A DNA stretch of 26,985 nucleotides from positions 1-26,985 of the IMG/VR virus record IMGVR_UViG_3300013125_000879. One strand, given 5' to 3'. Origin of the DNA: a virus. The notes under the pieces are model-generated. The model was given only the letters and a program-made list of their open reading frames with translations. It ran no database searches and was not told the origin of the DNA. Positions 2,641 through 17,378 of the stretch are shown one piece after another (within the stretch, counting starts at the first letter, position 1; the number at the start of each line of letters is the position of its first letter). Position numbers and translations under genes: made by a program.

Positions 2641-5600
2641 GTGAATAATTTACTATTTTTTAATAATAAGGGGTATCCACATAATTTTCAATATAATGAT
2701 AATACGGAATGCTGGGAAGGAAAAATAATTTTTGATGAAAATTCGGATCAGACATTCAAAACACAAAGTTTACACATATTCGAAAATGTTGAACCAATAG
2801 AATTTCAAATTGATGTTGATTTATTACAATTAGAATATAATAATAATAGCGGGTTGACTATTACTAGTGAAACTGATTTTAGTGATGAAATAATAACAAA
2901 TATATTAAAGGTAAACGAGTCTGATTCTTTTTATTCTAAATGGATATTCGGTGATAACTTTCATAGAAAATTTCCTGTTGGTACCATAATTCAATTCTCT
3001 GGTATAACACACGCTGATTTTAATGACAATCAATTTTTCACAGTTTTAACAGTTAAAAAGAACGCTTTTCTAATATTAACTAGAACTGATAATAGTACAT
3101 TTAATTACACCTATATTTCAGGTGGTACTGTAAATTCACTCAATATGATTTCTATTAATGATTATAATAGAAATCTATCAGGAAATACTTATTTTTTTCA
3201 AAATTTATATAGTGATAAAAAATTCTCTATTATTAATTCAGATCTTAATGATGCTATTGTAAGTGTAAAACAAAGTGGTATGACCAATTCATATTTAAAT
3301 GAATTACAATTAAATGGCTTCAAAGATCAAATATTCACACTAAAAATTGGTCTATTAACCGAAAGACCAAAGATATTACAGAATGATGTTGTTCTAACAG
3401 AAGAAATCTATAACTATTATATAGATGTTGGAAAATATGCCAGATTACTATCACCAGAAACTATTTATACTGTTAGTGGTCCAACATTACAGAAAAATGA
3501 GATTATATTTGAGGATTATCTCGGTAATAAATTATATAGTGGTTACACATTTATTGTTGATTCATTAGTTGATACAAAAGATATATCAACAAAAAAATTA
3601 ATATTTAAACAATACTATCAACAATCAGATGATTATCAATATTATAAATATGATAAACTTTATTTTAAAAATCAATGGAATGTTATCTACCTCAGTGATA
3701 CAATAGACATTAATATAGGAGATACCTTACAATTAAGTGGTATATCTGGTAGTACTTTATATATGCATAATAGAGAATTTAATATAAGTAATGTTGTATA
3801 TAATAGTGCAACTAACACTACTATTTTATTTACACCTGACTATGTTATTGACGAAGAAAATAGTTACTATTTAATAAAGAAGAAACTATCATCTAATCAA
3901 ATAACAAAAATTAAAGTAACACCAAGCGGCAACGTTACAGCATTTAATAATATAGTAATAAAAAATGCTTATTGTTACTTAACATCAAATATTCTAAATT
4001 TCTCTCAATATTATGTTACTGGTGTGACTAATAGTGTAAATTCTAATACTATTGATGCTTTTGTAGATAAATATAAATCAACGTTATATCAATATGGTAT
4101 AGATATCTATCATACACTTAGAAGTAGTATAGATTATTTATCTATTGAAAGTTTATATGGTTCATATACAAATTATTTTAGTGTATCTGGTTATACGAAT
4201 GGTGTTAAAATTACAGATAACTTTTCTTTATCAATAAATGGTTTAACTCAAAAATATAACATAATCACAAATGAGAAATTATATAATGAATATACAAATA
4301 GATCAGATGAAGATTTATACAAATCAGAAGTTAGTTCTGAAATTTTATTTAATTTGAATAATGATACTGATAGATTTGGATTTAGATTAACTCTTAATGG
4401 AAACCAATATTATATTAGTTACTCAGCTGATACAATCAACACTATAAATAGTTTTATAGATACCTATTATACAATATTTGAAAATAATGGTTTTATTATC
4501 AATAGTGAATATAGTTCAAACTACTCAGGTTACACCTTAGTTATAAGTACTGATGTTGATATTTGGAATTTGAATATAATGGTTAATATTTTATCAACTT
4601 ATCAAATAATCGAACATCAAAGAAATAGAGCTATATTATTGAGTGGTAATGAAATACATAGTACTAACAATTTGTTTAATTTTGGTTTATCAACAGGTAT
4701 GTTAATAAAACTTACTGGAAGTACATATAGTCAAAATAATAAGGAATATAATATAATTAGTTTAACTCAGGATATAATAGGCTTATCATATCAAGGTGTA
4801 TTTGAAAGTGAAAATGATGTCTCTATCTATTTTTCAACTAGAGAATTTATTAGAAAACCCAGAGGTGAATATGAGAAGGATATATATTTAAGAGCTTATT
4901 GGAGCTTACCATATGATAATAGCCTGGATGAGTCTATATTTTTCTATGATATAACCGGAGATCAATTAACACCATATAATAATAATTCTCTATTGACTTA
5001 CACTGGTCAAAAACCTCTAATTGATAGTACAACCAATAATGTTGTTTTTTTAAATACCGAACCTAATAAAGATTACACACGGGTGAATAATCCTAAGTAT
5101 CAACAAACTGTATTTGATGAATTAATTTTTAAATTGGAGCAATTAGATTCATCTGAAAGTTATAACTGGATACCTGAACCATTAGAAATCTTTATTGGAT
5201 ATAATTCACCAAATGAAGGAGTGAATACTAGAATATTAAAAATTGAGAAAATTGAAAAACAACAAAATAATGACAATTATTTTTCATATAGTGGATATAC
5301 AAATTCAGGTTCATCAATTTCGACCCCCAATTTTATACTAAGTGGATATACATTAAATTATCAAGCACCTATAGATTTTAATTTTATATCTTATGGATTT
5401 AAGAAAGATCAAATCATTAAAATAACCTTTAAGGATCAAAACGAAACGAATCAGAAAATATTTGAAAATTATTACAACTATAAAATTCAAGATGTTTCTA
5501 GAACTAAAATCATAATTGATACTGGTTATACATATAATCAAGATACTTATGATAGTGGTATAACATACGCAACTGGATTTACTTATTTTAATTCTACTGG

Positions 5601-6876
5601 TACTACGTATTTCTTTAAATTAGAAGTTCAACCAAAAGATATACTTTATTGTCCAATGTACGGACAAACAGAAATAGAAGATATTAGATATAAAGTTAAT
5701 CTTAATAATTTAGGTGTACAATCTGAAGAAGATGTTTATCAAATATTATATCAATCTGATATACAAGATAATGCTATTGATTACACTTTATTTAATAGAA
5801 AACGAAAAGAAATGTTAACTACATTTAGAGAAATTTATGATTATATAGGTTCATATAAATCATTAGTTAATGCTATTAATTATTTTGGATATAATGATTT
5901 ACAATTATATGAATATTATAGAAATATAGATCAATCATCTCCACTTTATGGTAAATTACACAAAGTTTTAATTCCGGATATTTTTGATAATACTGTTGAA
6001 GGTTGGAATGAAATGGATTTTATTGGAGGTAAATATCAAAATCAATATTCTTGGAAGAAGACAAATTTATTTAATTTGGCATATAAAATTACAAATGAAG
6101 ATGGTGATAATGTTTTAATTTACTCATTAGATGAAGTTCAATATAAATTGACAAAATTAAAGAATTGGTTAAGAAAAAATATTATACCAGTTTCTGCTAA
6201 TTTATTAGATATTACAGGTGTAGCTGATTCAAATGGTACATTTTATCAAGAGTATGATGAATCAAATCAGACTATTAAATCAGTCGTTGAGAGAGATTCA
6301 ACGGTAGTCAATTTCACTTATACGGCAACCCTAAATTTCGGTTCAGATTATTTGATAACGGTTAATTTTTACACTATGTCTGGTGCAACCGGAACTACCA
6401 TTGATAATAATGACGTACCAGTTCATTTCACTGCAAAAATAAAGACTTTCTATCTTTCCGGTTCAACTATATTAAATCCAACTGATACACTTGTACCTGT
6501 ACAATATTTAAAAATAAATAAGAATGATTTAAAACCATTTAGTTTTAATATTAATAAATATGTAGATCCTTATATTTATATTGAGACTACAACCTATGAC
6601 AATGATGGAAGTGGATTAGGATATGTTAATAATAAATTATTTTATTATGATGAACCTAGAAATTGGTGGATAGTAAATCATAATTTTGATTTACATCAGA
6701 TGAAATATTGGCAAACAACTAATTATATTAGCAATGAACCTAAGAAATGGGTTGGTGTAGATATTGTAACTGATAGTACTGTGATATCAACACCAATAGA
6801 AACTATTGTAAAAGTGAATACTTTAAACAATACTTATATTTCACAAATATCATCAAATAGTTCTATTCAAAAATAA
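2641..6876 (+). CDS. Giant phage structural protein (baseplate/tail-like), 1411 aa
   Basis: A 1411-residue protein using GTG as start (VNNLLFFNNKGYPHNF...); no earlier in-frame start is available. It is Asn/Ser/Thr/Tyr-rich, beta-prone, and holds about twenty [ST]-G-x-T tetrapeptides (SGYT, SGIT, SGST, TGFT). The region near residues 1055-1200 (LTTFREIYDYIGSYKSLVNAINYFGY, then a conserved-looking KLKNWLRKNIIPVSA stretch) resembles the helical region of tail/baseplate proteins that recognise a repeating 'l..l..y.gs..gl..ai..fG' pattern, as in phage tail protein I-like families; this is a weak match made by eye. The next gene (6889) starts 12 nt downstream and carries the same SGYT motif, suggesting one structural operon. 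Likely part of the baseplate or tail; the exact component is unknown. Confidence 0.75.
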   Translation: MNNLLFFNNKGYPHNFQYNDNTECWEGKIIFDENSDQTFKTQSLHIFENVEPIEFQIDVDLLQLEYNNNSGLTITSETDFSDEIITNILKVNESDSFYSKWIFGDNFHRKFPVGTIIQFSGITHADFNDNQFFTVLTVKKNAFLILTRTDNSTFNYTYISGGTVNSLNMISINDYNRNLSGNTYFFQNLYSDKKFSIINSDLNDAIVSVKQSGMTNSYLNELQLNGFKDQIFTLKIGLLTERPKILQNDVVLTEEIYNYYIDVGKYARLLSPETIYTVSGPTLQKNEIIFEDYLGNKLYSGYTFIVDSLVDTKDISTKKLIFKQYYQQSDDYQYYKYDKLYFKNQWNVIYLSDTIDINIGDTLQLSGISGSTLYMHNREFNISNVVYNSATNTTILFTPDYVIDEENSYYLIKKKLSSNQITKIKVTPSGNVTAFNNIVIKNAYCYLTSNILNFSQYYVTGVTNSVNSNTIDAFVDKYKSTLYQYGIDIYHTLRSSIDYLSIESLYGSYTNYFSVSGYTNGVKITDNFSLSINGLTQKYNIITNEKLYNEYTNRSDEDLYKSEVSSEILFNLNNDTDRFGFRLTLNGNQYYISYSADTINTINSFIDTYYTIFENNGFIINSEYSSNYSGYTLVISTDVDIWNLNIMVNILSTYQIIEHQRNRAILLSGNEIHSTNNLFNFGLSTGMLIKLTGSTYSQNNKEYNIISLTQDIIGLSYQGVFESENDVSIYFSTREFIRKPRGEYEKDIYLRAYWSLPYDNSLDESIFFYDITGDQLTPYNNNSLLTYTGQKPLIDSTTNNVVFLNTEPNKDYTRVNNPKYQQTVFDELIFKLEQLDSSESYNWIPEPLEIFIGYNSPNEGVNTRILKIEKIEKQQNNDNYFSYSGYTNSGSSISTPNFILSGYTLNYQAPIDFNFISYGFKKDQIIKITFKDQNETNQKIFENYYNYKIQDVSRTKIIIDTGYTYNQDTYDSGITYATGFTYFNSTGTTYFFKLEVQPKDILYCPMYGQTEIEDIRYKVNLNNLGVQSEEDVYQILYQSDIQDNAIDYTLFNRKRKEMLTTFREIYDYIGSYKSLVNAINYFGYNDLQLYEYYRNIDQSSPLYGKLHKVLIPDIFDNTVEGWNEMDFIGGKYQNQYSWKKTNLFNLAYKITNEDGDNVLIYSLDEVQYKLTKLKNWLRKNIIPVSANLLDITGVADSNGTFYQEYDESNQTIKSVVERDSTVVNFTYTATLNFGSDYLITVNFYTMSGATGTTIDNNDVPVHFTAKIKTFYLSGSTILNPTDTLVPVQYLKINKNDLKPFSFNINKYVDPYIYIETTTYDNDGSGLGYVNNKLFYYDEPRNWWIVNHNFDLHQMKYWQTTNYISNEPKKWVGVDIVTDSTVISTPIETIVKVNTLNNTYISQISSNSSIQK

Positions 6877-6888
6877 ATATATAGGTAT

Positions 6889-7209
6889 ATGGGAAGATTA
6901 AGTAGACCTGCGAATGTTGTTAATACTGAAAATGTATCTAGTGGTTACACATACCCAATCAGTAGCGTTGTCTTGAGTGGCGAAACTAAAAATATCTATG
7001 TATTTGTTGATGAATCTGGTAATGTTAATCAAATTGAGAAAAAACAAAAAAAAGAAAGATTAAGATATTACATTGATCCGAATATGCCACAGGTAGAGTT
7101 TATTCCTGATTGTTTAATCGGTATAAATGATCCAGTGAGTGGAGATTGCTCTTTAGGTATAGGATTAGGTATAGGAGATAATCTATTTGCCAGGGCAAAC
7201 TACTCTTGA
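6889..7209 (+). CDS. Small structural-module protein, 106 aa
   Basis: Begins 12 nt after the 1411-aa structural gene and is probably co-transcribed. The N-terminal half contains SGYT and SGET motifs like those of its neighbour. The centre is basic (EKKQKKERLRYYIDP), and the C-terminal half holds Cys residues and a Gly-rich stretch (DCSLGIGLGIGDNLFARANYS). It has no signal peptide or membrane segment. Context suggests a minor tail or baseplate component; no family is recognised. Its stop codon overlaps the end of the convergent minus-strand gene by 10 nt. Confidence 0.65.
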   Translation: MGRLSRPANVVNTENVSSGYTYPISSVVLSGETKNIYVFVDESGNVNQIEKKQKKERLRYYIDPNMPQVEFIPDCLIGINDPVSGDCSLGIGLGIGDNLFARANYS

Positions 7210-7499
7210 TCTTCAAATGAATCAAGATACAATTTATTCATATATTTCTCAATATTATTACATATAGGTAATTTACCGTAAACATTCTCTTTTTCATTTA
7301 TACATCTGAATCCAACATTTTCAATGAAAAATAAATTAATTAAATTATTATCTATTTTTATACCTCTATATTGTAATAAAATTCTGAGTTGATCTTCACT
7401 ATAATTTTCTAGTAATTTATTTATAGAACTTGTGATGTTATCATCATATTTTTTATCTCTTAATCTTTGTAAACTCTCTACGATTAAAAATTTTTTCAT
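7200..7499 (-). CDS. Hypothetical protein with capsid-targeting-like N-terminus, 99 aa
   Basis: The last of three minus-strand genes, 5 nt after its upstream neighbour. The protein starts MKKFLIVESLQRLRDKK: a short basic, Phe-containing N-terminus ending in Ile-Val-Glu followed by Ser. This resembles the T4 capsid-targeting sequence (MKTYQEFIAEA) and the N-termini of several other small proteins in this window. The body is predicted to be mainly helical (SSINKLLENYSEDQLRILLQ) with two Cys residues. No known domain was recognised. The virion-packaging idea is inference only. Confidence 0.55.
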   Translation of the reverse strand: MKKFLIVESLQRLRDKKYDDNITSSINKLLENYSEDQLRILLQYRGIKIDNNLINLFFIENVGFRCINEKENVYGKLPICNNIEKYMNKLYLDSFEDQE

Positions 7500-7504
7500 A
7501 TCTT

Positions 7505-7864
7505 TTATTGTTTTGAATTGTTAATACATTCTATTGCAATATCATTCAATTCACCTTTTTCTATCAATTCTTCTAATTTCATTGATTCTACAATAGAATA
7601 TAAGGAAACATCATGAATATAAAGAAAAGTATCATATCTACCATAATCTTCACCATATATAAATTCATCTAAATCAATCTTATCTATATTCTGCGTACCA
7701 TCTTTAAAGATTACACCAACAACCATTAATTGATTTTGTCGCAGATCTTTATAACAATCATGCTCAGATATATTGATACCATCTCTAATCTTATTACTAT
7801 CGGGATCTAGTAGAAATAAATATAATAATTCATTTAATCTTATAACAACACCATCATACGTCAT
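7505..7864 (-). CDS. Hypothetical protein, 119 aa
   Basis: Middle gene of the three-gene minus-strand cluster. Its ATG overlaps the stop of the upstream gene in an ATGA arrangement (7861-7864), which suggests translational coupling. The product is acidic and soluble, with an N-terminal hydrophobic segment (ELLYLFLLDPDSNK) too short and too charged to be a membrane helix, and a glutamate-rich helical C-terminus. No family was recognised. Confidence 0.55.
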   Translation of the reverse strand: MTYDGVVIRLNELLYLFLLDPDSNKIRDGINISEHDCYKDLRQNQLMVVGVIFKDGTQNIDKIDLDEFIYGEDYGRYDTFLYIHDVSLYSIVESMKLEELIEKGELNDIAIECINNSKQ

Positions 7865-8082
7865 GTAATATTATTTATTTTCTTCATTTTAATAATTCTA
7901 GATAATAATTTATTATCATTGATTAATTTATTTTTATCTATAATAACTTCATTTATAGAAAGAAAATCAATATCATCATTATATTCAATCATAAAATTAA
8001 TCACATTAATTCTATTCTCTAAGTAAATGTTTTTTGGTCTGCTCATTTTCTTAGCATATATGATATTAAAACCTTCATTCAT
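7861..8082 (-). CDS. Hypothetical protein, 73 aa
   Basis: First gene of the minus-strand cluster, starting 57 nt from the divergent ruvC gene. The product is Asn/Ile/Lys-rich, with a basic N-terminal segment (YAKKMSRPKNIYLENRINV) and a basic C-terminus. No recognisable domain. The ATGA overlap with the next gene supports it being a real coding sequence. Confidence 0.5.
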   Translation of the reverse strand: MNEGFNIIYAKKMSRPKNIYLENRINVINFMIEYNDDIDFLSINEVIIDKNKLINDNKLLSRIIKMKKINNIT

Positions 8083-8139
8083 TTCAATATTTATAGAACT
8101 CTTTTTTCTTTATATATAAAAAAAATTAAAAACAGTTTA

Positions 8140-8838
8140 ATGATATTTATAGGTTTAGATGTTTCTAAAATTTCAACCGCACTCTGTATTGAAAAAAATG
8201 ACGAGGTGAAAATATACAGTTATACAACTAAAAAGAATAATAATAACTGGCTAAAATGTACCAGTAATTTTATTAACTATAGAAATATAGTATATAATTA
8301 TGATTTGGAAACGGATTATAGTAAATCTGAAATATTAAAACTAATTGAATTTGATAAGATTACTGATATGATTGTTAAAGATATTTTTGATAATTATAAT
8401 AAAAAAGATAAAATAAGAATTGCTATAGAAGGTTATTCATACAATTCAAGAGGACCTATATTTGATCTTATAGAATTCACAACAACTCTTAAAAATAAAC
8501 TCTTAAAGAAAATAAAAAATGAAAATGATATTATAATTATATCTCCAATGACATTAAAAACTGAAGTGTGTAAGATGATTTATCTACCTAGAATAGAATT
8601 AACAGGTAAAAAGAAAGTGAAATCAATATTACACTATGAAAATAAATATGGTAAATCTGCTATCAAATTTGATAAATGGGATATGCTTTATGCCTTTATT
8701 GATAGTAATATAGATATGGATATAAAGGATTGGATTAAATTAAATATTGATTCTATCAGCAAAAATAAAGAAGTTCCTAAACCATTAGATGATGTGATAG
8801 ATTCAATCTTTCTTAAAGAAACGATAAAAAAGTTTTAA
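8140..8838 (+). CDS. ruvC: RuvC-like Holliday junction resolvase
   Basis: A 232-aa protein with the RNase H-like fold pattern of RuvC resolvases: GLDVSKISTALCI puts the first acidic residue at D7, IAIEGYSYNS gives E97, and the C-terminal PLDDVIDSIFL supplies D218 and D221, equivalent to the paired aspartates in RuvC. The segment IIIISPMTLK (131-140) corresponds to the strand and loop before the DNA-binding helix. In this family the enzyme cuts Holliday junctions symmetrically; in phages it resolves branched replication and recombination intermediates before packaging, a role played in T4 by the unrelated gp49. It diverges from the small-gene cluster ending at 8082. The 45-residue insertion after the first strand is larger than in bacterial RuvC. 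Function is confident at fold level, moderate for exact substrate. Confidence 0.75.
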   Translation: MIFIGLDVSKISTALCIEKNDEVKIYSYTTKKNNNNWLKCTSNFINYRNIVYNYDLETDYSKSEILKLIEFDKITDMIVKDIFDNYNKKDKIRIAIEGYSYNSRGPIFDLIEFTTTLKNKLLKKIKNENDIIIISPMTLKTEVCKMIYLPRIELTGKKKVKSILHYENKYGKSAIKFDKWDMLYAFIDSNIDMDIKDWIKLNIDSISKNKEVPKPLDDVIDSIFLKETIKKF

Positions 8839-8946
8839 TATATACAAGAAAATCAAAAATTCGGGGGGGAGAAAATATTATTTATTATATATTATCAAGA
8901 TCTTGCATGTTTTTATAAATAAATGAAAATTAAGTAGTTATATACG

Positions 8947-9354
8947 ATGTTAATTACAAAAAAAGTATGTATAAGAATAAATACTACCGCTATGTGTAAA
9001 AAATCAACAAAACAAAATGAATATGAACTCTTAAGATTTTGTAACAAATTAAATTCTAATATAATTGGTGGTGCTTCTAAATTATTTGAATATTTCATCA
9101 AAATGTATAATCCAGATGAAATAACTACATATGCAGATAGAAGTTTTAGTCAAGGTAATTTATATAAACAATTAGGATTTGAATTTATTAGTAAAACTGA
9201 ACCAAATTATTATTATATTATTGATGGTATTAGAAAGCATAGATTTAATTTTAGAAAAGATAAATTGGTTAGAGAAGGTCATGATAAAAATAAGACTGAG
9301 CATGAAATTATGTTAGAAAAAAAATATATAGAATATACGATTCTGGAAATTTAA
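8947..9354 (+). pseudogene. C-terminal fragment of a phage homing-endonuclease-type protein, frameshifted
   Basis: The 135-aa frame contains the stretch YELLRFCNKLNSNIIGGASKLF, then YADRSFSQGNLYKQLGFEF, NYYYI and KTEHEIMLE. This is characteristic of the C-terminal domain found in many phage and giant-virus homing-endonuclease-like proteins, which normally ends HEIM(L)ER-x-Y-RIYDCGN. Here the end reads KKYIEYTILEI, but the +1 frame of the same DNA (9330-9380) reads YRIYDSGNLKFNYVR. A single missing A in the A8 run at 9322-9329 therefore explains the altered tail. The N-terminal half of the family is absent, and the upstream 108 nt hold no replacement. I read it as a decayed relic. The restored frame would overlap the start of the gene at 9364. 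The frameshift could also be a sequencing error. Confidence 0.65.
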
Positions 9355-9363
9355 AATTTAATT

Positions 9364-10266
9364 ATGTACGAAGAAAATAAAGAATATAAGTTCAATCCAA
9401 AACATATAAAAATATATGGCCCAGCAATTAATGAGGCTCAACAAATTGATCCAAATATAATTCCTGATTTTCCTATTAATAAACCCGTAAAATTTAATGA
9501 AAATCTTATGAAAAAGGCTATAAAATATGGTCTTATAATATTAATAAATTATAGAGGAGATAAGGATAAATGGCGTGGTGGTCGTGAAAGAACTATTCAG
9601 CCTATGGTTCTCGGTGTAAATAAAAATACTCGAAATATGTTAATCAGGGGGTGGCATTTAGAAGGTTGGAGTGTTTCACAAAGAGCAGAAACTAAAAAGG
9701 TTTGGAGATTATTTAAAACTGATAATATTGTATCTATGACTTTTACGGGTAATTTTTTTAGGCTTCCACCATCTGGTTATAAAATGAACGATAGAATTAT
9801 GACAGAAAAAACATTAGCAAGAGCTGATTTTAATGAAATAAGGAGAAATCAAGATTCTTTATTAAAAGGTGGAAAAATTCAAGCTGAGGAAGAAACAACA
9901 ATAGCAAAAACAACTGGAGGTGTAATAAGTATAGAATTAACAAATTCTAATTCTCAAATAGATTTTAAAGCACCTTATAAAAATTTACTTATTAATAAGA
10001 AAAATTTAGATACCGTTAGATTTATGAAGGATCCAAATACTTTAGCATTAAAATTTTCAATTATGAAGAGTATGTTTGGTAATAAATATTTAACAATTGT
10101 AGGAGCAGTAGGTACTATTAATAAACAAGTTAAGGTATTTGATGGTAAAAAATTATTAGGTAATTATAAATGTATTCGTTCATTTTTAGGTTCAGATTTA
10201 TCTAAAAATAAAATTATAGATAATCAAAGTATATTTGATTTATATGTATTCAATAGAAAATTATAA
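9364..10266 (+). CDS. WYL-domain-like protein, 300 aa
   Basis: Residues about 58-146 (LIILINYRGDKDKWRGGRER, then TIQPMVLGVN, RNMLIRGWHLEG, VWRLFKTDNI) follow the WYL-domain pattern: a strand with YRG, a charged turn, an R-x-[IV]-x-P-x-x-L strand, a segment reporting on a hydrophobic 'WYL-like' strand, and an F/R-x-x-x-I motif. WYL domains bind ligands, often nucleic acids or nucleotides, and usually sit in transcription regulators or defence regulators. No helix-turn-helix is visible here. The C-terminal half (about 150-300) is unrecognised and rich in Lys and Asn. It starts 9 nt after the homing-endonuclease relic. The WYL assignment is by eye and tentative; transcriptional control of phage or host genes is a guess. 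Confidence 0.5.
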   Translation: MYEENKEYKFNPKHIKIYGPAINEAQQIDPNIIPDFPINKPVKFNENLMKKAIKYGLIILINYRGDKDKWRGGRERTIQPMVLGVNKNTRNMLIRGWHLEGWSVSQRAETKKVWRLFKTDNIVSMTFTGNFFRLPPSGYKMNDRIMTEKTLARADFNEIRRNQDSLLKGGKIQAEEETTIAKTTGGVISIELTNSNSQIDFKAPYKNLLINKKNLDTVRFMKDPNTLALKFSIMKSMFGNKYLTIVGAVGTINKQVKVFDGKKLLGNYKCIRSFLGSDLSKNKIIDNQSIFDLYVFNRKL

Positions 10267-10290
10267 TAATTATGCTAATTGTTTTGGAAA

Positions 10291-10365
10291 ATGAAATTAG
10301 ATGAAATTTTTGATTTTCTTAAAGATCCATACCTTTGGTTAGCAACAAAAAAGTATAATATATGA
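10291..10365 (+). pseudogene. C-terminal remnant of the tandem MKIKKF paralogue family
   Basis: A 24-codon frame (MKLDEIFDFLKDPYLWLATKKYNI) ends in a TGA that overlaps the ATG of the next gene (ATGA). Its last residues, WLATKKYNI, match the C-termini of the two following paralogues, ELAAKKYNL and EVTSNKYNL, at the same position relative to the stop. I read it as the surviving tail of a third, deleted copy; it could also be a translated leader peptide that couples to the next start. A second tiny frame (10272-10304) lies just upstream and is not supported. Confidence 0.4.
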
Positions 10366-10730
10366 AAATTAAAAAATTTAATGAATCAACAGATACTTTT
10401 AAACCACTAAAAGTTGAGGATAAAAAAATTTATTATAAAATTAAAGTTGATAATTCATTTATAAAGTTTGAAATTGCTTTAGATAAATTAGGAATAAAGA
10501 AGATGGTTATGAGTCATTATGATTTTGATAATACTTATATTAAAGATATTATTGCAAATAATGTTTATGTTTATGTATTTATAGATTTCTTTAAAAATAG
10601 ATTAGGTCAAGATACATATGAAATATGTGTTCAAGATAGAATTTTTGATACAGAAATAAAAACCTATACTAATGGTGGTGATGTTTTTGTGTCTGATTAT
10701 GAATTAGCAGCAAAAAAATACAATCTATGA
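10362..10730 (+). CDS. Tandem paralogue A with capsid-targeting-like N-terminus, 122 aa
   Basis: Starts MKIKKFNES and is clearly related to the next gene: both share IALDKLG (near residue 40), a NGGDV[FY]V stretch and a terminal [AS]xKYNL. Its stop overlaps the next ATG (ATGA). The N-terminal MKIKKFNE followed by Ser resembles the T4 capsid-targeting sequence and the starts of several unrelated small proteins in this window. The body is mixed alpha/beta with no known domain. Function unknown. Confidence 0.6.
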   Translation: MKIKKFNESTDTFKPLKVEDKKIYYKIKVDNSFIKFEIALDKLGIKKMVMSHYDFDNTYIKDIIANNVYVYVFIDFFKNRLGQDTYEICVQDRIFDTEIKTYTNGGDVFVSDYELAAKKYNL

Positions 10731-11101
10731 AAATTAAAAAATTTGAAAGTTTTATAATTCCAGGAGGTGATAATTTAATTTACTATACCTTACATATTAA
10801 TGGGTCCTGGGATAAATTTTTAATAGCATTAGATAAATTAGGAGTCCGAAGAGAACAATTTTTAAATGATTGGAATATAGAAGATATAAGTGATTTATCA
10901 AGTACTAATGCTGAATATTTTAAAAAAGATACAATAGTTTTTTTAATAAAAAATCAGTATTTCTACATTAGAAATGTGATTGATGATTTTTACAATAATA
11001 CCGGCTTAGGTAAAATATTATATAATCATGAAAAATTAATTAATGGTGGTGATGTTTATGTTGAAGATTGGGAAGTAACATCAAATAAATATAATTTATG
11101 A
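10727..11101 (+). CDS. Tandem paralogue B with capsid-targeting-like N-terminus, 124 aa
   Basis: A diverged copy of the preceding gene (shared MKIKKF start, FxIALDKLG, NGGDVYV, final NKYNL). The first 7 residues MKIKKFE are followed by Ser. The order of blocks is conserved while the middle has diverged strongly, as expected for an old tandem duplication. Four-nucleotide ATGA overlap with the preceding gene. No domain recognised; role unknown. Confidence 0.6.
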   Translation: MKIKKFESFIIPGGDNLIYYTLHINGSWDKFLIALDKLGVRREQFLNDWNIEDISDLSSTNAEYFKKDTIVFLIKNQYFYIRNVIDDFYNNTGLGKILYNHEKLINGGDVYVEDWEVTSNKYNL

Positions 11102-11104
11102 AGA

Positions 11105-11441
11105 ATGATAAAAAATTTTGAAAGCTTTGGTGATAGTATGTATCCTATTGATGATATATATAATTGGTGGACTGGTATTAAAGTTTCTGAAAAATGAATA
11201 TTATTATATTATAGATTTAAATAATATATTCTTACCAAATAAAATGTTTCAATTAGATAAAGGTTTAAAAAATGTTGTAGTAAATTTTTATTCTAAAAAT
11301 GGTATGAAATATATAGAATCTAGATTAAAAAAAGTAGATTTAATATCTGGAGGATTAATATTTCATGAAACTAATTCAAATATACATGTAGTAGATATAA
11401 CTAAACCAATTAAAATTTCAAAACTACATATTAGTAGATAA
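11105..11441 (+). pseudogene. Frameshifted small gene with MIKNFES N-terminus
   Basis: A 30-codon frame starts at 11105, 3 nt after the previous stop, with MIKNFESFGDS, the same N-terminal style as its neighbours, and stops at 11197 just after VSEK. The +1 frame then continues uninterrupted to 11441 (NEYYYIIDLNNIFLPNKMF...ISKLHISR). Removing one A from the A5 run at 11190-11194 would join them into a protein of about 111 aa. Reading the +1 frame alone from a TTG at 11118 gives a hydrophobic start (MKALVIVCILLMIYIIGG), a possible membrane segment, but TTG starts look unusual here and this frame is antiphase to the better N-terminus. Real decay, a sequencing error and programmed frameshifting all remain possible. 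Confidence 0.5.
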
Positions 11442-11457
11442 ATACAATTTATAAAAT

Positions 11458-11718
11458 ATGGCAAGATTATTTAATGAAATACCAAAAATGCTTAAAAGAT
11501 TGAGTATAATCTCACAATATAATAATTTTAGACAATTAGGTGTAGATGATGATATTGTGTATCTAAATGAAAAAATAACTGATCTTTATGATATGAAAGA
11601 TGATACAGAATTACTCATAAAAGAATTCAACTATTGTGCTAAAATGATTAATATGTTATATGATGAAATAGATTATGATTTTAAGAAAAAAATATTAGAA
11701 GAAGGAAAAGAAGTTTAA
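11458..11718 (+). CDS. Hypothetical helical protein, 86 aa
   Basis: Starts 16 nt after the frameshifted gene and ends just before a strong bidirectional terminator, closing this plus-strand run. The product looks all-helical and acidic (NEKITDLYDMKDDTELLIKEF, LYDEIDYDFKKKILEEGKEV). No recognised family, signal or membrane segment. Confidence 0.55.
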   Translation: MARLFNEIPKMLKRLSIISQYNNFRQLGVDDDIVYLNEKITDLYDMKDDTELLIKEFNYCAKMINMLYDEIDYDFKKKILEEGKEV

Positions 11719-11721
11719 AAT

Positions 11722-11750
11722 AAAAAAGCCTGATTTAATCAGGCTTTTTT
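11722..11750. terminator. Bidirectional intrinsic terminator
   Basis: AAAAAAGCCTGA and TCAGGCTTTTTT form a perfect 12-bp stem around a 5-nt TTTAA loop. With poly-A on one side and poly-T on the other it can stop transcripts on both strands, ending the plus-strand gene at 11718 and the minus-strand gene at 11752. Confidence 0.9.
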
Positions 11751-11751
11751 A

Positions 11752-11952
11752 TTAAAATAATTTTGAAATTTCATCCGCTATTTCATCAAAATATTCTTCT
11801 TTTATCGCATATGTTTCATGATCAGGACCATAAATACCTTCTTTATAATTATTTAAAATATCAAGTATTTTTTCTTTATTATCAGAATAGAAAATATCAA
11901 TATAATCATCTCCTGATTCACTAATCTTATTAAATTCTTTTATGTGTTTCAT
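11752..11952 (-). CDS. Small acidic protein with capsid-targeting-like N-terminus, 66 aa
   Basis: Starts MKHIKEFNKISES: a basic amphipathic N-terminus with Phe and an Ile-Ser-Glu followed by Ser, closely resembling the T4 capsid-targeting sequence with its cleavage motif ([IL]-x-E). The rest is strongly acidic, with a mixed strand and helix pattern (DYIDIFYSDNKEKILDILNNY). It lies 14 nt after deoC and is probably co-transcribed with it. Both carry a similar N-terminal extension. Function unknown. Confidence 0.6.
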   Translation of the reverse strand: MKHIKEFNKISESGDDYIDIFYSDNKEKILDILNNYKEGIYGPDHETYAIKEEYFDEIADEISKLF

Positions 11953-11966
11953 AATTTAATATTTTT

Positions 11967-12776
11967 TTAATAACTACTAGTTCCTGTGCCTTCAGCACCA
12001 CCAAATATAGAATCAACTGATGCAAAACCAACACCAAATCTATCTACATAAGGCGCAAATTTTTTCAAGTCTGCTAATGTTCTTATACCACCAGAAGCTT
12101 TAATTTTCATATCAGAGCCTTCTTGTTCTATGATTTTTCTCATTATCTGAACCTTATTTAATTCTGCTACACCTGGATTATCACTTGGTGTTTTCATTCC
12201 TGTTGAAGTTTTAATGAAATCAGCACCAGCTTCTATACATATACGAGTTGCATTTTCTGTAGCTTCTTCACTCAACTCACTTGATTCAACAATAACTTTT
12301 AAAACTATTTCATCACCATCTTTATTAGTATGAGAATGACATTCATCAACTAAGGTTTCAACATCATAAACAAAATTATAATCACTTAACCCGAAATTGT
12401 TTTTTTCTTTCTCAACATATTCTATCAATTTAGGATAATCTAACACCATATCAACCTCATCAGCTCCAGCAGCAATAACTTGTTTAGTTTCAGATAATTT
12501 TTGTTCTGTTGTATCTGTTCCGTGAGGAAAACTTACAACTGTACAAACCAATACCGGTGAATTTGAAAGTGCCTCAGCTGCAACTTTAACCATTTTTGGT
12601 AAAACACAAACTGATTTTACACCAAGATTATTAGCCTTTTCACATAAAGCCAATATATCATTTTCAGTTGCACCCGGATTGAGTAATGTATAATCTATGT
12701 GTTCAATTAAGTTAGGTTCAGCAACTGATTCATTCATTTTATTTAAGAAATTCTTAAAATCAAATATTTTGCTCAT
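11967..12776 (-). CDS. deoC: Deoxyribose-phosphate aldolase (DeoC) with N-terminal extension
   Basis: This 269-aa class I aldolase cleaves 2-deoxyribose-5-phosphate to glyceraldehyde-3-phosphate and acetaldehyde. Family motifs are intact: IDYTLLNPGAT (27-37), EVDMVLDY with D109, DFIKTSTGM with the Schiff-base lysine K189, KASGGIRT with the second lysine K226, and a C-terminal Tyr (Y269) that assists proton transfer in characterised enzymes. The fold is complete and should be active. Oddly, the usual start of the family lies about residue 22; the extra N-terminus (MSKIFDFKNFLNKMNES) resembles the capsid-targeting-like N-termini of neighbouring small proteins, with Met-Asn-Glu before Ser. In the phage it could salvage deoxyribose from degraded host DNA or be packaged in the virion. 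Probably an operon with the 66-aa gene at 11752. Confidence 0.92.
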   Translation of the reverse strand: MSKIFDFKNFLNKMNESVAEPNLIEHIDYTLLNPGATENDILALCEKANNLGVKSVCVLPKMVKVAAEALSNSPVLVCTVVSFPHGTDTTEQKLSETKQVIAAGADEVDMVLDYPKLIEYVEKEKNNFGLSDYNFVYDVETLVDECHSHTNKDGDEIVLKVIVESSELSEEATENATRICIEAGADFIKTSTGMKTPSDNPGVAELNKVQIMRKIIEQEGSDMKIKASGGIRTLADLKKFAPYVDRFGVGFASVDSIFGGAEGTGTSSY

Positions 12777-12803
12777 ATTAAAAATTTTATTTTTCTTTAT
12801 ATA

Positions 12804-13209
12804 TTAATTTTTGATATTGTTTTTTGTCTTTAACTTCATCCGCATACTCTTTATTGAATAATAAGATTTATTCAATTGCTTAGCACAATATTTAATACTT
12901 TTATCGTAATTATTAATTAAAAAATTAATTTCTTGTTCTCTCCAATATTTCTTAGGTGTATTAAATACCATATGTGAACATATTTCATCATACCAACCAT
13001 TATTTCTAGCCGAAGAAGCTGCACCTCTACTATTAATATTAAAATCCGTTCTATATTTAAATTTAATAGCTTCGGCTTTACAATTTTCATATGTCCAGTA
13101 GATAGTATTTCCTCCTAGCATCTTTTTTTCTGAAATCATTTCTATTTTTATATTTCAATGCAATTTCATGACATCTATCCTTTGTCCAATAATTATTTGG
13201 CTTCTTCAT
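12804..13209 (-). pseudogene. Frameshifted homing-endonuclease-type DNA-binding protein relic
   Basis: Two overlapping minus-strand frames together make one protein. Frame 1 starts at 13209 (MKKPNNYWTKDRCHEIALKY...NDFRKK) and stops at 13087. Frame 2 starts at 13139 and runs to 12804. Both carry the same [YW]T-x-[DE]-x-C-x-x-x-A-x-K[YF]K-x-R-x-[DN]F repeat, and frame 2 continues with GWYDEICSHM, a module common in phage homing endonucleases and Vsr-like proteins, then a C-terminal helix-turn-helix (YWREQEINFLINNY, YCAKQLNKSYYSIKSM). Removing one A from the A7 run at 13122-13128 would fuse them into a single protein of about 134 aa. No nuclease domain is present, so it is a DNA-binding remnant or an accessory factor. 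The RHH gene lies 1 nt upstream. Confidence 0.6.
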
Positions 13210-13494: not shown

Positions 13495-13653
13495 GTGAAA
13501 TTCAATAAGAAAAAAAGTATTAGTATATCAATACATCCGGAGATATTAAATTTAATGACAATTTACTGCAAAAAACATAAGATTAATAAATCAAAGTTCA
13601 TAGAAAATAAAATTATTAAGTATCTCGAAACAAAAAATAATAAAATAGAATGA
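13495..13653 (+). CDS. Ribbon-helix-helix DNA-binding protein, 52 aa, GTG start
   Basis: Starts with GTG (VKFNKKKSISISIHPEI...) because the next ATG lies inside the fold. The strand KSISISI, helix A (PEILNLMTIYCKKHK), the turn INKS and helix B (KFIENKIIKYLE) give a complete RHH pattern. It is closely related to the protein at 19697 (shared KKK[ST]xSxSI and KINKSK[FY]IE-like block). Its TGA overlaps the ATG of the SbcD-SbcC gene (13650), so the two are translationally coupled and the regulator may control that gene. Confidence 0.7.
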   Translation: MKFNKKKSISISIHPEILNLMTIYCKKHKINKSKFIENKIIKYLETKNNKIE

Positions 13654-16600
13654 TAATTGCACACTTGGGTGATATCCATATATTGAATGAAAATAGACAC
13701 GATGAATATCAGAAAGTATTTAATAGATTATACAAAAAATTACAAGAATTAAAACCTGATAGGATAGTAATTGTAGGTGATTTATTTGAAAGTAAATTAA
13801 CTTTATCTAACGAAGCTAAATTATTAGCTGGAAATTTTTTAAATAATTTATCTAAAATATCAAAAATTATAATTACTTGTGGTAATCATGATTTGAACTA
13901 TAAATCATTAAACCGAATTGATAGTATTGAAACCATTGTTAAATTGATAAATAATACTAATATTACTTATTATAATAAAAGTGGTATTTATAAAGACGAT
14001 CAAATTTCTTGGGTAGTATATCATCATCCAGAAAAAAATATAGATCCTTGGATCGGGCAGATAAAAGATAAAAATCAAATTTATGTTGGACTTTTTCATG
14101 ATCCGATACAAAATTCTTCAACCGATATAGGTAAAGTATTTACCGATAAGTCACTAAAAGATATATCATATTTTAATCATAATGATTATATGATGCTTGC
14201 CGATATTCATAAAAGACAATACTTTAGAAAAAATAAATCAGCTGCATATTGTGGATCATTAATACAAAAAGATTATGGTGAATCAATTGATAAACACGGA
14301 TTTCTTTTGTGGAATTTAATAAGTGCGACAGAATTTGAAATAACAGAATATGATATTGAAAATGATCATAGATTTCTTAATTTATATATCGATGAAGAAA
14401 CTGACTATGAAAATCTTAAAATTAAAGTAGAAAATTTAACCGAAGATACTGAAATTAAGGTTCATTGGAAAGATTTAAGTTCAAATATTAATACTATTAA
14501 TGAAAAACAAATCAGAGATTATATCAAAGAAAATTTGAATACGACAAAAGTTAAATTTGAAAAAATTTTTGTTTATAATGACGTTATAGATTCTGAAATG
14601 TTATCTGAATCTTTAGATTTAAGTGATACTGACATACAAAATAGTATATTTAAGGAATACCTTGAAAATCAAAAATATAAAAAAGAAGATATTGATGAAA
14701 TTTTAAAAATTGATCAAATTATCAACAATAGATTGAACCTTAAAAATACTAAAGCTAATATACAATGGAGTGTAGATAAGTTCTGGTTTAGTAATTTTAA
14801 ATCATATGGTGACGATAATAAAATTGATTGGAATGATATTGATGGCATGATTCAAATAATCGGATTAAATCAGGAAGGTAAAACTACAATTTTGGATGCT
14901 TTGACTTATATTTTATTTGGTAAAACAACAGTTACCTTATCACCTGAAAAATTCGGTGATAGTAGATACATAAATAATAAAAGAGATTTGGACTATTGCT
15001 TAGGTGGTGCCATTATAGATGTGGATGGTGAAAAATTTATTATACAACGAAAAACAGAAAGAATTTGGAATAAGAACAAGACGATTATTTCTAGTTGCCC
15101 AACCACACTAGATTTCTATAAAAATGAAGTATCAGAAAAAAATAAATTAACAGATGAAGTCAGAGTAAAAACGCAAGAAAAATTAGAACTAATTATAAGT
15201 GACATAGCATCATTTATAAGATTATCATACACTAACGCTGATAATCTGAACTCAATATTATCAGAAACCAGAAGTGTTTTTATGGATAATATAATCAGAG
15301 ATGCAGGATATGATGTTTTTGAAATTAAGTTAGAGGAATTTAAAGAATATAAGAAAGAATTGAGTGAGGAAAAAATAATACTAGATATACAAGAATCAGA
15401 AGCTAGAATAGATGAGTTAAGCACAAATATTGAAAATAAAAAAATAGAAATAGATACCAATAAGACCTTAATAGAAAATTTTGATAATGAATTATCTAAC
15501 CTCAACAACAAAAGAGATGATTTTAATAAAAAATTAAATAATATAGACTCATCAATGATTAATTTTGATGAAAATATTAATCTTAATTCTATTGAAAATT
15601 ACGATAAAAAAATAGAGGAACTTAAAATTCAAAATGTCATTTTGGAAAGAGAAATTAAAGAATTACCTTTAAACTTTGATACAAAGAAACTTAATGATCT
15701 AAAAATAAAACTTAAAGAAACTAATGATAAAATATCTGAAAGAAAAGATGAAATTTCAAATTTAAAAAATCTTATAACAGAATCAGATAATAAAAAAGAT
15801 AAGGTACTATCTAAAATTAAAGAATTAAAAGAGTCTGAGATTAAGAAATTACAATTTAAAATTAATAATAATGAACTTAAGATAGAAATGATTAAGAATC
15901 AAATAGATAAAATCATAAATGAAGAAATTAGAAATATTGATTCACAAATTCAAAATATAATTCTACAAAGGAATGAAATAAATAATAAAATTAAGCTACT
16001 ACAAAAGGATGGAATTAATGCTAAAAATGCAAATGATAAGCTAGATAAAGAAATAGATGAGTTGAAAAATTCAACATCTTGTCCAACTTGTGGTAGAGAA
16101 TATGATAGCAACGATCCAAAGTACTCTGAGCATTTGAATCATCTACAAGAAAATATCAAAGAATTAGGAGAAGAGAAAAAGGAAAATACAGATAAAATAC
16201 AGAAATACTTATCAGAATATAAAAAACTGAAAAATACTCTACCTAGCTTAGATGATAAGGAAAAAGTATTAGAAGAGAGCAAGAAGACAATTAATAATAG
16301 TATTTATTCTGAGAAAGTTAAAGAAAAAATTGTTGAAGCAGGTGATGTTAACATTCTAAAACAAGATAATTTAACTACTAAATCAATAATTGAACAGATT
16401 AAAAATGATAATTATGATAATGCGCCATCACTTAAAGAAAATGTTTTAAGAGGTGAAATCATACTTAAAAAGATAGAAATTTCTAGAAATGAAAATTTAA
16501 AAGTTATTAAAAATCTAGAAATAGAATTAAAAAATTTCAATATTGAAAGTATTGAAAATGATATAGAAATTGAAGAAAAATTGAAAGAAAAATTTGAACT

Positions 16601-17378
16601 TAGAAATACAAAGATTTCTCAAAAAGATAATATAAAACTTTCAATTGAAAATTTTGAACTGAAAATAAAAGATTTACAATTAGAGATAGATAAATTTCAA
16701 GAGTATAAATCTAAAATTGAAGAAAATGAAAAAATTCAAATATCTATCAACGATTTAGAACAAAAGATTAATATTATCAAAGATAATATTAAAGAGATTA
16801 ATCAAGAAAATATAGATTATGAGAAAGATATATTATTAAAAAATAGTGAAATAGATACAATATCTATTAACATTAAAAAATATTTGAAACAAAGAAAAAA
16901 AGAAGAACTTCTTAAAGAATATCAAAAATGCATATCAAGAGATGGTATACCTACCTTTTTATTGAAAAAATCTATACATCTAATAAATAAGGAATTGAAT
17001 GATTTATTATCTAATGTTAATTTTACTTTATTTTTTGATGAGAATTTAACTTTAAGAATGAGTGCTAATGATAGATTGGATGTAAGTCAAAACTCTATAG
17101 AAAGTTCAGGAATGGAAAGAACATTCTGCTCACTTGCCTTAAAAATAGCATTAAGAGAAATTAACGTTAAATCTAAACCAACTTTCATTTTTCTTGATGA
17201 AATTATGGGTAAATTAATTGGTGATTCAGTACAACAATTTATAGATTTTTTAGATGTAATTAAAACAAAAGTAAAAAAAGTTGTTATTATAGAGCATGTT
17301 CATCCGATAAACTATCAAGCTCTCATTGAAGTTAAAAAAGATGAAAAATTGATCTCACACCTAGAATTAAAATATTAG
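13650..17378 (+). CDS. Fused SbcD-SbcC (gp47-gp46, Mre11-Rad50) recombination nuclease
   Basis: A 1242-aa single polypeptide joining the two subunits that are separate in T4 (gp47, gp46) and bacteria. Residues 1-230 are a Mre11/SbcD metallophosphoesterase: D8 and H10 (LGDIH), D44 (VGDLFE), N79/H80 (CGNHD), H150 (GLFHD) and H187 (ADIHKRQ). Residues about 370-1242 are a Rad50/SbcC SMC-like ATPase: Walker A IIGLNQEGKTT (403-413), long coiled coils, a zinc hook with C811-P-T-C814, signature SSGMERT (1152-1158), and Walker B FIFLDE (D1183, E1184). The complex resects DNA ends for recombination-dependent replication and repair. All catalytic motifs are present. Preceded by a coupled RHH gene. Sure of function, less sure how unusual the fusion is. 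Confidence 0.93.
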   Translation: MIIAHLGDIHILNENRHDEYQKVFNRLYKKLQELKPDRIVIVGDLFESKLTLSNEAKLLAGNFLNNLSKISKIIITCGNHDLNYKSLNRIDSIETIVKLINNTNITYYNKSGIYKDDQISWVVYHHPEKNIDPWIGQIKDKNQIYVGLFHDPIQNSSTDIGKVFTDKSLKDISYFNHNDYMMLADIHKRQYFRKNKSAAYCGSLIQKDYGESIDKHGFLLWNLISATEFEITEYDIENDHRFLNLYIDEETDYENLKIKVENLTEDTEIKVHWKDLSSNINTINEKQIRDYIKENLNTTKVKFEKIFVYNDVIDSEMLSESLDLSDTDIQNSIFKEYLENQKYKKEDIDEILKIDQIINNRLNLKNTKANIQWSVDKFWFSNFKSYGDDNKIDWNDIDGMIQIIGLNQEGKTTILDALTYILFGKTTVTLSPEKFGDSRYINNKRDLDYCLGGAIIDVDGEKFIIQRKTERIWNKNKTIISSCPTTLDFYKNEVSEKNKLTDEVRVKTQEKLELIISDIASFIRLSYTNADNLNSILSETRSVFMDNIIRDAGYDVFEIKLEEFKEYKKELSEEKIILDIQESEARIDELSTNIENKKIEIDTNKTLIENFDNELSNLNNKRDDFNKKLNNIDSSMINFDENINLNSIENYDKKIEELKIQNVILEREIKELPLNFDTKKLNDLKIKLKETNDKISERKDEISNLKNLITESDNKKDKVLSKIKELKESEIKKLQFKINNNELKIEMIKNQIDKIINEEIRNIDSQIQNIILQRNEINNKIKLLQKDGINAKNANDKLDKEIDELKNSTSCPTCGREYDSNDPKYSEHLNHLQENIKELGEEKKENTDKIQKYLSEYKKLKNTLPSLDDKEKVLEESKKTINNSIYSEKVKEKIVEAGDVNILKQDNLTTKSIIEQIKNDNYDNAPSLKENVLRGEIILKKIEISRNENLKVIKNLEIELKNFNIESIENDIEIEEKLKEKFELRNTKISQKDNIKLSIENFELKIKDLQLEIDKFQEYKSKIEENEKIQISINDLEQKINIIKDNIKEINQENIDYEKDILLKNSEIDTISINIKKYLKQRKKEELLKEYQKCISRDGIPTFLLKKSIHLINKELNDLLSNVNFTLFFDENLTLRMSANDRLDVSQNSIESSGMERTFCSLALKIALREINVKSKPTFIFLDEIMGKLIGDSVQQFIDFLDVIKTKVKKVVIIEHVHPINYQALIEVKKDEKLISHLELKY

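Follow-up and report, generated by a model that had tools for sequence, protein, structure and literature searches.

CTS-directed internal proteins are already known from bacteriophage T4, in which mutants of the 10-residue capsid-targeting sequence (CTS) of internal protein III (IPIII) assigned targeting mainly to residues 4 and 7 and processing to residues 8 and 10 (PMC9026906; published sources are cited here for individual passages). A basic body is not needed for targeting, as foreign proteins get packaged in T4, and it has already been proposed in print that T4-like phages may package a variety of proteins by means of the CTS (PMC9026906). A second related case is that of the inner-body or ejection proteins of phages phiKZ and SPN3US, which enter the head and are processed there by a related protease that cleaves after Glu (PMC5694885). 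Here we compare with these systems a 26,985-base stretch of viral DNA, the entire virus record IMGVR_UViG_3300013125_000879 (hereafter the window), and its relatives. A sequence-only reading of the window had pointed to six genes, named here by the nucleotide at which they begin (7499, 10362, 10727, 11105, 11952 and 12776, the last encoding DeoC), whose products start with a short, basic, Phe-containing peptide ending in Glu-Ser, and had proposed that these proteins are loaded into the capsid and injected with the DNA.

For the phage lineage to which the window belongs, a T4-like capsid-targeting and propeptide system is well supported by sequence, because an N-terminal profile transfers between genomes and to T4, because S77 protease and Gp23 capsid domains are found in 4/4 larger relatives, and because the motif is repeated in the protease open reading frame (ORF) of four genomes. 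In this form the proposal stood; as a statement about all six window genes it did not. We put at about 0.75 the probability that huge phages use such a system at large scale, with an N-terminal tag that copies a unit of a scaffold repeat and a cargo that would be packaged, cut and delivered.

The genes of the window are also present, in reversed order, in the 86,112-base contig IMGVR_UViG_3300013137_002967 (86-kb contig), which belongs to the same virus and may not be independent. The window protein encoded at 2641-6876 aligns with LR756501 and LR756503 (735 kb) at 38% identity over 96% of its length, and with LR756504, LR745206 and LR756502 (634-642 kb) with 62-67% coverage. As judged from these matches, the window comes from a phage related to the "Mahaphage" genomes of 634-735 kb; the largest genomes were placed in the Mahaphage clade by Al-Shayeb et al. 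(2020), with Bacteroidetes hosts predicted for the five largest (PMC7162821). For comparison, ORFs were called on overlapping pieces of LR756501 (1039 ORFs), LR756504 (943), LR756500 (697), PTm1 (318), the 86-kb contig (130) and IMGVR 3300033514_000249 (43-kb contig, 69), the window itself giving 34. The caller was simple (ATG, longest ORF), so that some starts are wrong (e.g. that of the LR756504 protease) and some genes were missed (T4 Alt and gp67).

Training and testing of a two-block profile used different genome sets, with a 1% level and internal Met windows as controls. Starting from the loose seed [FY]x[NKE]E[SA], the N-termini of LR756501 yielded the motif [FY]xx[FY][ILV][NK]E↓[AS] (the arrow marks the presumed cut), the preferences learned being [YF] at P7, [QE] at P5, [FY] at P4 and [ILV] at P3. 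With this profile 35/943 N-termini passed in LR756504 (9.4 expected), 44/697 in LR756500 (7.0) and 15/69 in the 43-kb contig (0.7). A second profile, which was trained on LR756504, LR756500 and the 43-kb contig and does not favour Ala at P2, retrieved 102/1039 N-termini in LR756501 (10.4 expected), 23/130 in the 86-kb contig (1.3) and 4/34 in the window. A weaker excess was obtained in PTm1 (9/318 with the LR756501 profile and 13/318 with the second, 3.2 expected) and in Lak-A1 (11-27/423, 4.2 expected). The first 381 kb of Lak-A1 (MK250015, 1-381 kb) show another recurrent N-terminal word (L.ES 14 vs 2.1 expected, ESLF 6 vs 0.2), possibly a diverged tag. The excess is also visible with no profile, as the N-termini of LR756501 contain F.NE 33 times (3.6 expected), FINE 15 times (0.4) and K.FE 38 times (6.0). 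Plain pattern counts also showed enrichment, but with many internal matches (in LR756501, 50/1039 N-termini vs 47/3532 internal windows for the 'strict' pattern and 105/1039 vs 183/3532 for the 'core' pattern), and were replaced by the profiles.

One important question is whether these N-termini are simply a translation-initiation or composition effect of an AT-rich genome, whose starts are rich in Lys, Ile, Asn and Phe, with Glu-Ser being incidental. In line with such an effect, words rich in Lys and Ile are over-represented at the N-termini of these genomes, and two of the window genes (7499 and 11105) score at background. Against it stands the order of the elements: an aromatic pair followed, after a spacer of up to 6 residues, by a cut site was 5- to 15-fold more frequent at N-termini than in internal Met windows in four sets, namely LR756501 (71/1039 vs 23/3532, p=6e-28), LR756504 (37/943 vs 19/2403, p=3e-9), LR756500 (29/697 vs 5/1659, p=2e-11) and the 43-kb contig (16/69 vs 3/190, p=8e-8), with 5/130 vs 2/316 (p=0.02) in the 86-kb contig. 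In addition, the combined arrangement is absent from the N-termini of crAss001 (0/108), the profile transfers to the T4 internal proteins, and orthologues agree in tagging beyond chance (see below). A composition effect is hence quite unlikely in our view. The same ordered arrangement was not significantly enriched in T4 (4/269 vs 4/847, p=0.10) or crAss001 (0/108 vs 1/544).

When the LR756501 profile was applied unchanged to the 269 called ORFs of T4, to which Alt and gp67 do not belong, gp61.1, IPIII and IPII (MKTYQEFIAE) occupied ranks 1, 2 and 3, followed at a distance by gp22 (11), gp24 (22), gp68 (60), gp23 (89) and gp21 (265). The second profile ranked gp61.1 first, IPI 4, IPIII 10 and IPII 11, and the two profiles passed 13 and 15 T4 ORFs at the 1% level (2.7 expected). 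Two T4 internal proteins, IPII and IPIII, were thus found by a profile free of T4 sequence. Residues 4, 7, 8 and 10 of IPIII, those singled out by the mutants, correspond to P7, P4, P3 and P1 of the aligned tag motif. The tags share with T4 IPI, IPII and IPIII (and Alt) the short N-terminal peptide, the aromatics three apart, the [IL]xE↓A site and the unrelated bodies, and the relatives share with T4 the S77 protease and Gp23 capsid domains. They differ in that T4 has three internal proteins plus Alt, whereas tens of tagged proteins occur per genome here, with larger, acidic and enzymatic cargo; the consensus P2 is Asn/Lys here, and the tag has its counterpart in the tandem repeats of a protease-scaffold ORF, repeats that are absent from T4 gp21 and gp22. 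SPN3US is more distant, with an A-x-E motif and several propeptides of more than 100 residues, compared with 10-20 residues carrying aromatics here. The T4 protein with the top tag score under both profiles, gp61.1 (MKTFKEFIKE↓D; 54 amino acids, annotated 'hypothetical', NC_000866 19130, minus strand), may, on its N-terminus, be an overlooked internal protein.

Head protease and capsid domains were searched in six records. PF03420 (S77 protease) was found at E<=0.001 in 4/6 (LR756501, LR756504, LR756500 and PTm1), two of them over the curated cut-off, and PF07068 (Gp23) exceeded its cut-off in the same four; with these two families neither gene was found in the 86-kb contig or the 43-kb contig, both of which are fragments. 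S77 is also present in Lak-A1, LR745206 and Chryseobacterium phage MA9V-2. The scores of LR756501 (24.1 bits), LR756504 (24.7) and LR745206 (20.1) lie below the curated cut-off of 27 bits, and the three are mutually alignable by tblastn.

The protease ORFs of LR756501, LR756504, LR756500 and PTm1 are long (589-807 amino acids), and those of LR756501 and LR756504 carry a C-terminal array with 14-residue periodicity, the unit being about YSxYIAExLDKSI. The pattern [YFH]xx[YFH][ILVM][AGN]E occurs 13 times in the protease ORF of LR756501 and 11 times in each of those of LR756504, LR756502 and LR745206, with at most 3 copies in the other ORFs of LR756501, LR756504 and LR756500. Scanning internal positions with the LR756501 N-terminal profile placed the LR756501 protease ORF first of 1039 (14 matches, runner-up 5) and the LR756504 protease ORF first of 943 (11 matches, runner-up 4). 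As far as sequence can tell, the tag in four relatives resembles one copy of the repeat in this protease-fused putative scaffold, the presumed inner core of the head. An S77-type domain in a core scaffold/protease ORF has precedents in the PTm1 'prohead core scaffolding protein and protease' and the Serratia phage BF 'prohead core scaffold and protease'; the PTm1 ORF has a 16/32-residue periodicity and many [ILV]xE sites, whereas the YSxYIAE 14-residue array was seen in four 634-735 kb genomes. The capsid precursor offers comparable sites. The propeptide of T4 gp23 has 65 residues (PMC5694885), and gp23 E65 falls in the top 0.1% of internal T4 positions with the LR756501 profile (about 42 positions pass). 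Candidate sites lie at a similar place in four relatives (LR756501 MNE↓N43, LR756504 IHE↓N42, LR756500 LYE↓N44 and PTm1 INE↓N42, the last also with INE↓S54) and are predicted to be cut. At P1' of the tags, Asn (23) comes third after Ala (34) and Ser (31).

Proteins with p<0.005 and Glu at P1 were taken as tagged, which gave 83 in LR756501 (including DeoC and PPK2; about five false calls expected), 48 in LR756504 and 36 in LR756500. Their bodies fall into 66, 43 and 25 families, respectively, so that in LR756501 a common N-terminus is carried by 83 proteins of 66 families, as on the unrelated bodies of the T4 internal proteins. In alignments of 82 and 78 tagged proteins only Met1 and one Glu were conserved at >=90%, and mean column identity was 5%. 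Pfam was run on these 82- and 78-member sets (with 25 of 51 and 25 of 26 families listed) and in 20 single scans. Among the matches listed are PPK2, radical SAM, DeoC, a polynucleotide kinase phosphatase, LRR proteins, Gp23 and DUFs, together with a 2'-5' ligase/Acb1-like protein (2_5_RNA_ligase2 1.4e-10, Acb1 6.5e-7); 14 of the 20 single scans gave no family at E<=0.01 and two more gave weak zinc-ribbon or Ig-like matches only. A nicotinamidase-like tagged protein of LR756501 (455943, by our reading of the start) matched no Pfam family and is not claimed. Two proteins of LR756504 (603568 and 624103) have YHFT/YHWT followed by L..I in their N-termini, which resembles ADP-ribosyltransferase folds like that of T4 Alt; Pfam found no family in them.

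DeoC carries the tag in the 86-kb contig, in LR756501 (MVKNFDKFVRE↓A) and in the 43-kb contig (MIINYNKFKSHIQE↓N), that is, in 3/3 phages of the comparison set that have DeoC, further DeoC matches existing outside that count. GluRS is tagged in three phages: the enzyme of the 43-kb contig (PF00749, 1.6e-88) begins with MKILKNYNDFASSKLNE↓S and aligns to solved GluRS from residue 18 at the earliest (among 20 matches listed at E<=1e-60, of which the best begins at residue 23), and those of LR756501 and LR756504 have N-terminal extensions ending in MKE↓S and LKE↓S. A protein of the DWDDN family is tagged in the 86-kb contig (MKRIRKWKDFLFE↓Y, p=0.0002) and untagged in LR756504; the tag can therefore be gained or lost as a module. 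Among reciprocal best hits on bodies (first 30 residues removed), both proteins were tagged in 5 pairs, one in 29 and neither in 495 (Fisher p=0.0004). Widening the tag range to residue 28, a choice made after GluRS appeared among the discordant pairs, changed these counts to 8, 33 and 488 (within-genome label permutation, 0.0002 of 5000), and to 5, 31 and 493 when the first profile block was left out (permutation 0.002). Five tagged proteins of the 43-kb contig (22042, 23071, 28154, 37062 and 38938) have a second module, about S[IV]RDxMxPKSxxxI, directly behind the cut site and ahead of the body. It may serve sorting or protection as a further element, or the five may simply be paralogues of one family.

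The tag is also carried by the LR756501 protease itself and by the LR756500 capsid protein, and T4 core proteins are cut into fragments (PMC9026906). This would agree with a core-association signal restricted to structural and scaffolding proteins, the products of which, like T4 gp67/gp68, are mostly degraded or expelled instead of being delivered. Such a restriction is unlikely, however, in view of the tagged enzymes: DeoC, GluRS, PPK2 and radical SAM proteins have little reason to act in assembly. That GluRS, DeoC and like enzymes act in the cytoplasm could suit a peptide that localises its protein to another phage compartment, a replication focus or the membrane, but the tag resembles both the head-protease repeats and the CTS residues of T4, which makes this a very remote prospect.

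Under the capsid-targeting reading that we prefer, the tag would be an N-terminal peptide of 10-20 residues, M-(basic/hydrophobic)-[FY]xx[FY], followed directly or a few residues on by [ILVM]xE↓[ASN], and tag and scaffold repeat would present one surface consisting of two aromatics plus Ile/Leu. Upon late expression the peptide would pack beside the scaffold repeats and pull its protein into the prohead core. The S77 protease would then cut after Glu in scaffold repeats, capsid precursor and tags alike, at [ILVM]xE↓[ASN]; the scaffold fragments would exit, and the freed cargo would remain with the packaged DNA and be delivered into the next host. Proteins with the pair only (10727 and 11105) would be targeted and left untrimmed, and those with the site only would be weak clients or chance occurrences. 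Docking, cleavage, packaging and injection are all steps that we infer from sequence. Candidate cargo would comprise DeoC (in the window), GluRS, PPK2, the radical-SAM protein and the Acb1-like 2H phosphoesterase. A fuller proposal concerns some of the largest known phages: the tag would be scaffold mimicry, one 14-residue unit placed on dozens of proteins for host takeover and metabolism (among them GluRS, DeoC, PPK2 and an anti-CBASS-like enzyme), and some 50-100 different proteins would be injected with the genome. It has in our judgement barely better than even odds.

If this is true, infection would start with translation, nucleotide and counter-defence enzymes ready-made; T4 IPI and IPIII have known or presumed counter-defence roles (PMC9391042). 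The tag would give a sequence-level prediction of which huge-phage genes of unknown function encode virion cargo, a tag copying the scaffold repeat would give residues 4, 7, 8 and 10 of T4 IPIII a structural meaning, and the tag could serve for loading proteins into very large capsids. In the open-access literature, searched with narrow terms (subscription papers and bioRxiv lay outside), no capsid-targeting tags in Mahaphage or Lak genomes appeared among the titles and abstract openings listed, nor did tagging on such a scale in the largest phages, enzymes as cargo, or the match between tag and scaffold repeat.

Several results weigh against the capsid-targeting reading. The sequence-only reading had suggested searching the motif across the genome, and the answer depends on the profile: in contrast to the second profile, the LR756501 profile passed just 4/130 N-termini of the 86-kb contig and 1/34 of those of the window. 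In the part of that contig outside the window the pair is in excess (17/94 vs 15/206, p=0.006), the site is not (7/94 vs 15/206), and pair plus site is marginal (4/94 vs 2/206, p=0.08). The pair-then-site arrangement was not significantly enriched in PTm1 (2/318 vs 8/960) or Lak-A1 (4/423 vs 12/1796), crAss001 gave 3/108 with the second profile (1.1 expected; 0/108 with the LR756501 profile), and T4 IPI, with its longer propeptide, ranks 93 with the LR756501 profile. As to the repeats, the LR756500 protease ORF has 2 copies of the pattern, T4 gp22 has cut sites and no aromatic repeats, and with the LR756501 profile the LR756500 and PTm1 proteases only tie other ORFs at 3 matches; with the second profile these two and the LR756501 protease are outside the top six ORFs. 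Among the cargo, thioredoxin, PAS/histidine kinase, UvsW and DegT aminotransferase are, by our reading, probably false calls, discordant orthologue pairs outnumber concordant ones, and DeoC and GluRS make up six of the eight concordant pairs, which are not independent. The five window bodies measured are acidic (net charge -1 to -18, vs +2 to +10 in T4 IPI-III) and thus lack the small basic body of the T4 internal proteins. Finally, within the window pair and site come together only in DeoC, 10727 and 11105 have no site, and 7499 is at background.

All six peptides claimed are encoded as described, on the minus strand at 7499, 11952 and 12776 and on the plus strand at 10362, 10727 and 11105 (Table 1). 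They are not one uniform element: the pair [FY]xx[FY] is present in 3/6 (10727, 11105 and 12776; absent from 7499, 10362 and 11952) and [FILVM]xE before Ser in 4/6 (7499, 10362, 11952 and 12776; absent from 10727 and 11105). A cleavable tag common to all six was rejected, as two lack the cut site and one is at background. Even in DeoC the pair, FKNF, stands at P10/P7 instead of P7/P4 and is thus shifted by three residues away from the site. The bodies had been described as mostly unrelated, which does not apply to the paralogues 10362 and 10727. Glu-Ser at residues 7-18 was found in 8/34 window ORFs (1.4 expected, p=5e-5), a range picked after the peptides were seen and with three of the eight (1922, 22205 and 22743) not tag-like; over the entire 86-kb contig the count was 13/130 (7.4 expected, p=0.03).

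The pooled profile gave p=0.0005 for DeoC and for 11952, 0.012 for 10362 and 0.25 for 11105, and 7499 and 10727 missed 0.05. The case for a T4-like tag is strong for DeoC, because it is tagged in all three phages of the set having the enzyme. The alignments of DeoC with 39 distinct solved sequences all begin at query residue 13 or later, those of the ten best at 22-24. For 11952 and 10362 the sequence makes a moderate case; in 11952 the best profile register is MKHIKE↓F, unlike the ISE↓S first read. For 7499 the case is weak, and MKKFLIVES may simply be the first helix of the protein, since residues 6-15 form a single helix in its AlphaFold model (pLDDT 68). The Glu-Ser of 10727 and 11105 is probably not scissile, because it lies inside the F-x-x-F pair with no [FILVM]xE site nearby, and these two genes appear to need another reading than a cleavable tag. 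Membership in the tag system is proven for none of the single window genes and is most likely for DeoC.

Table 1. Positions in the window of the six N-termini, their genes and the promoter-like element (aa, amino acids; nt, nucleotides).
Feature	Position	Strand	Remarks
DeoC N-terminus, capsid-targeting-like, MSKIFDFKNFLNKMNE↓S	12729..12776	-	aromatic pair F7/F10; candidate cut site M-N-E↓S at 16
DeoC, deoxyribose-phosphate aldolase, 269 aa	11967..12776	-	Pfam PF01791 E=9e-16; PDB 6d33 E=1.7e-31 from query residue 23
Tag-like N-terminus MKHIKEFNKISE↓S of 66-aa acidic protein	11917..11952	-	site I-S-E↓S, without aromatic pair
66-aa protein without family	11752..11952	-	
Short tag-like N-terminus MKIKKFNE↓S	10362..10385	+	candidate cut site F-N-E↓S, without aromatic pair
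122-aa protein without family	10362..10730	+	paralogue of 10727
N-terminus MKIKKFESF	10727..10753	+	aromatic pair F-E-S-F; no [FILVM]xE site in first 20 residues
124-aa protein	10727..11101	+	42% identical to 10362 (paralogue)
30-aa ORF MIKNFESF... ending TGA	11105..11197	+	pair F-E-S-F; no cut site in first 20 residues
Weak tag-like N-terminus MKKFLIVE↓S	7476..7499	-	site IVE↓S, without aromatic pair
99-aa protein without family	7200..7499	-	
TAATATATA, late-promoter-like	12798..12806	-	30 nt upstream of deoC

The 11952 gene begins 14 nucleotides downstream of the deoC stop, and both are probably on one transcript. Past the 11105 ORF the +1 frame is open to 11441 (a TTG ORF from 11118), with an identical arrangement in the 86-kb contig, so that 11105 is either a micro-ORF or a frameshifted gene. 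PHROGs and Pfam gave nothing below E=0.01 for the five small window ORFs (7499, 10362, 10727, the 11118 frame and 11952), a viral-contig search with 10362 matched solely the window's own longer contig, and a viral fold search with the 7499 model (pLDDT 68) gave no match at E<=0.001. The AlphaFold model of 10362 (pLDDT 38) was too poor for use, and functional assignment of 10362 and 7499 from predicted structure was dropped as too weak. A short ORF directly before 10362 (10291-10365, plus strand) ends in KKYNI, compared with the KKYNL/NKYNL ends of 10362 and 10727, and is perhaps a decayed third paralogue.

Upstream of tagged genes a promoter-like word, TAATATATA, was chosen from the 8-mers enriched in these same genomes. 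It lies within 80 nucleotides upstream of 19/45 tagged vs 69/831 other ORFs in LR756504, 21/82 vs 105/886 in LR756501, 4/12 vs 12/118 in the 86-kb contig (p=0.04) and 6/23 vs 9/46 in the 43-kb contig (p=0.37), and was not enriched in LR756500 (0/34 tagged vs 17/592 others). This word is likely a late promoter, because it precedes the LR756501 protease and an untagged tail-sheath-like protein of LR756504 (169409, our reading). The T4 late word TATAAATA was rejected for tagged genes (only 1/82, 2/45 and 1/34 have it). The upstream 8-mers of LR756500 (TTTGGATT) seem to mark a paralogue family rather than a promoter.

Other genes of the window are of interest in their own right. The gene at 22743-26288 (plus strand) encodes a ClpA-like ATPase and adjoins a ClpS adaptor gene (22205-22498, Pfam 9e-14). 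By our reading of its translation, an intein-like insert (CHGKGTKI...HN↓TYLAK) splits the second of the ATPase's Walker A motifs (GPTGVGK). An isochorismatase-family protein (18019-18702, a possible nicotinamidase) is encoded about 2 kb from a nicotinate phosphoribosyltransferase (20848-22188); both are untagged and could be an NAD salvage pair, perhaps acting against NAD-depleting defences. The 1242-residue ORF at 13650-17378 looks, as we read it, like a single-chain SbcD-SbcC fusion (T4 gp47-gp46).

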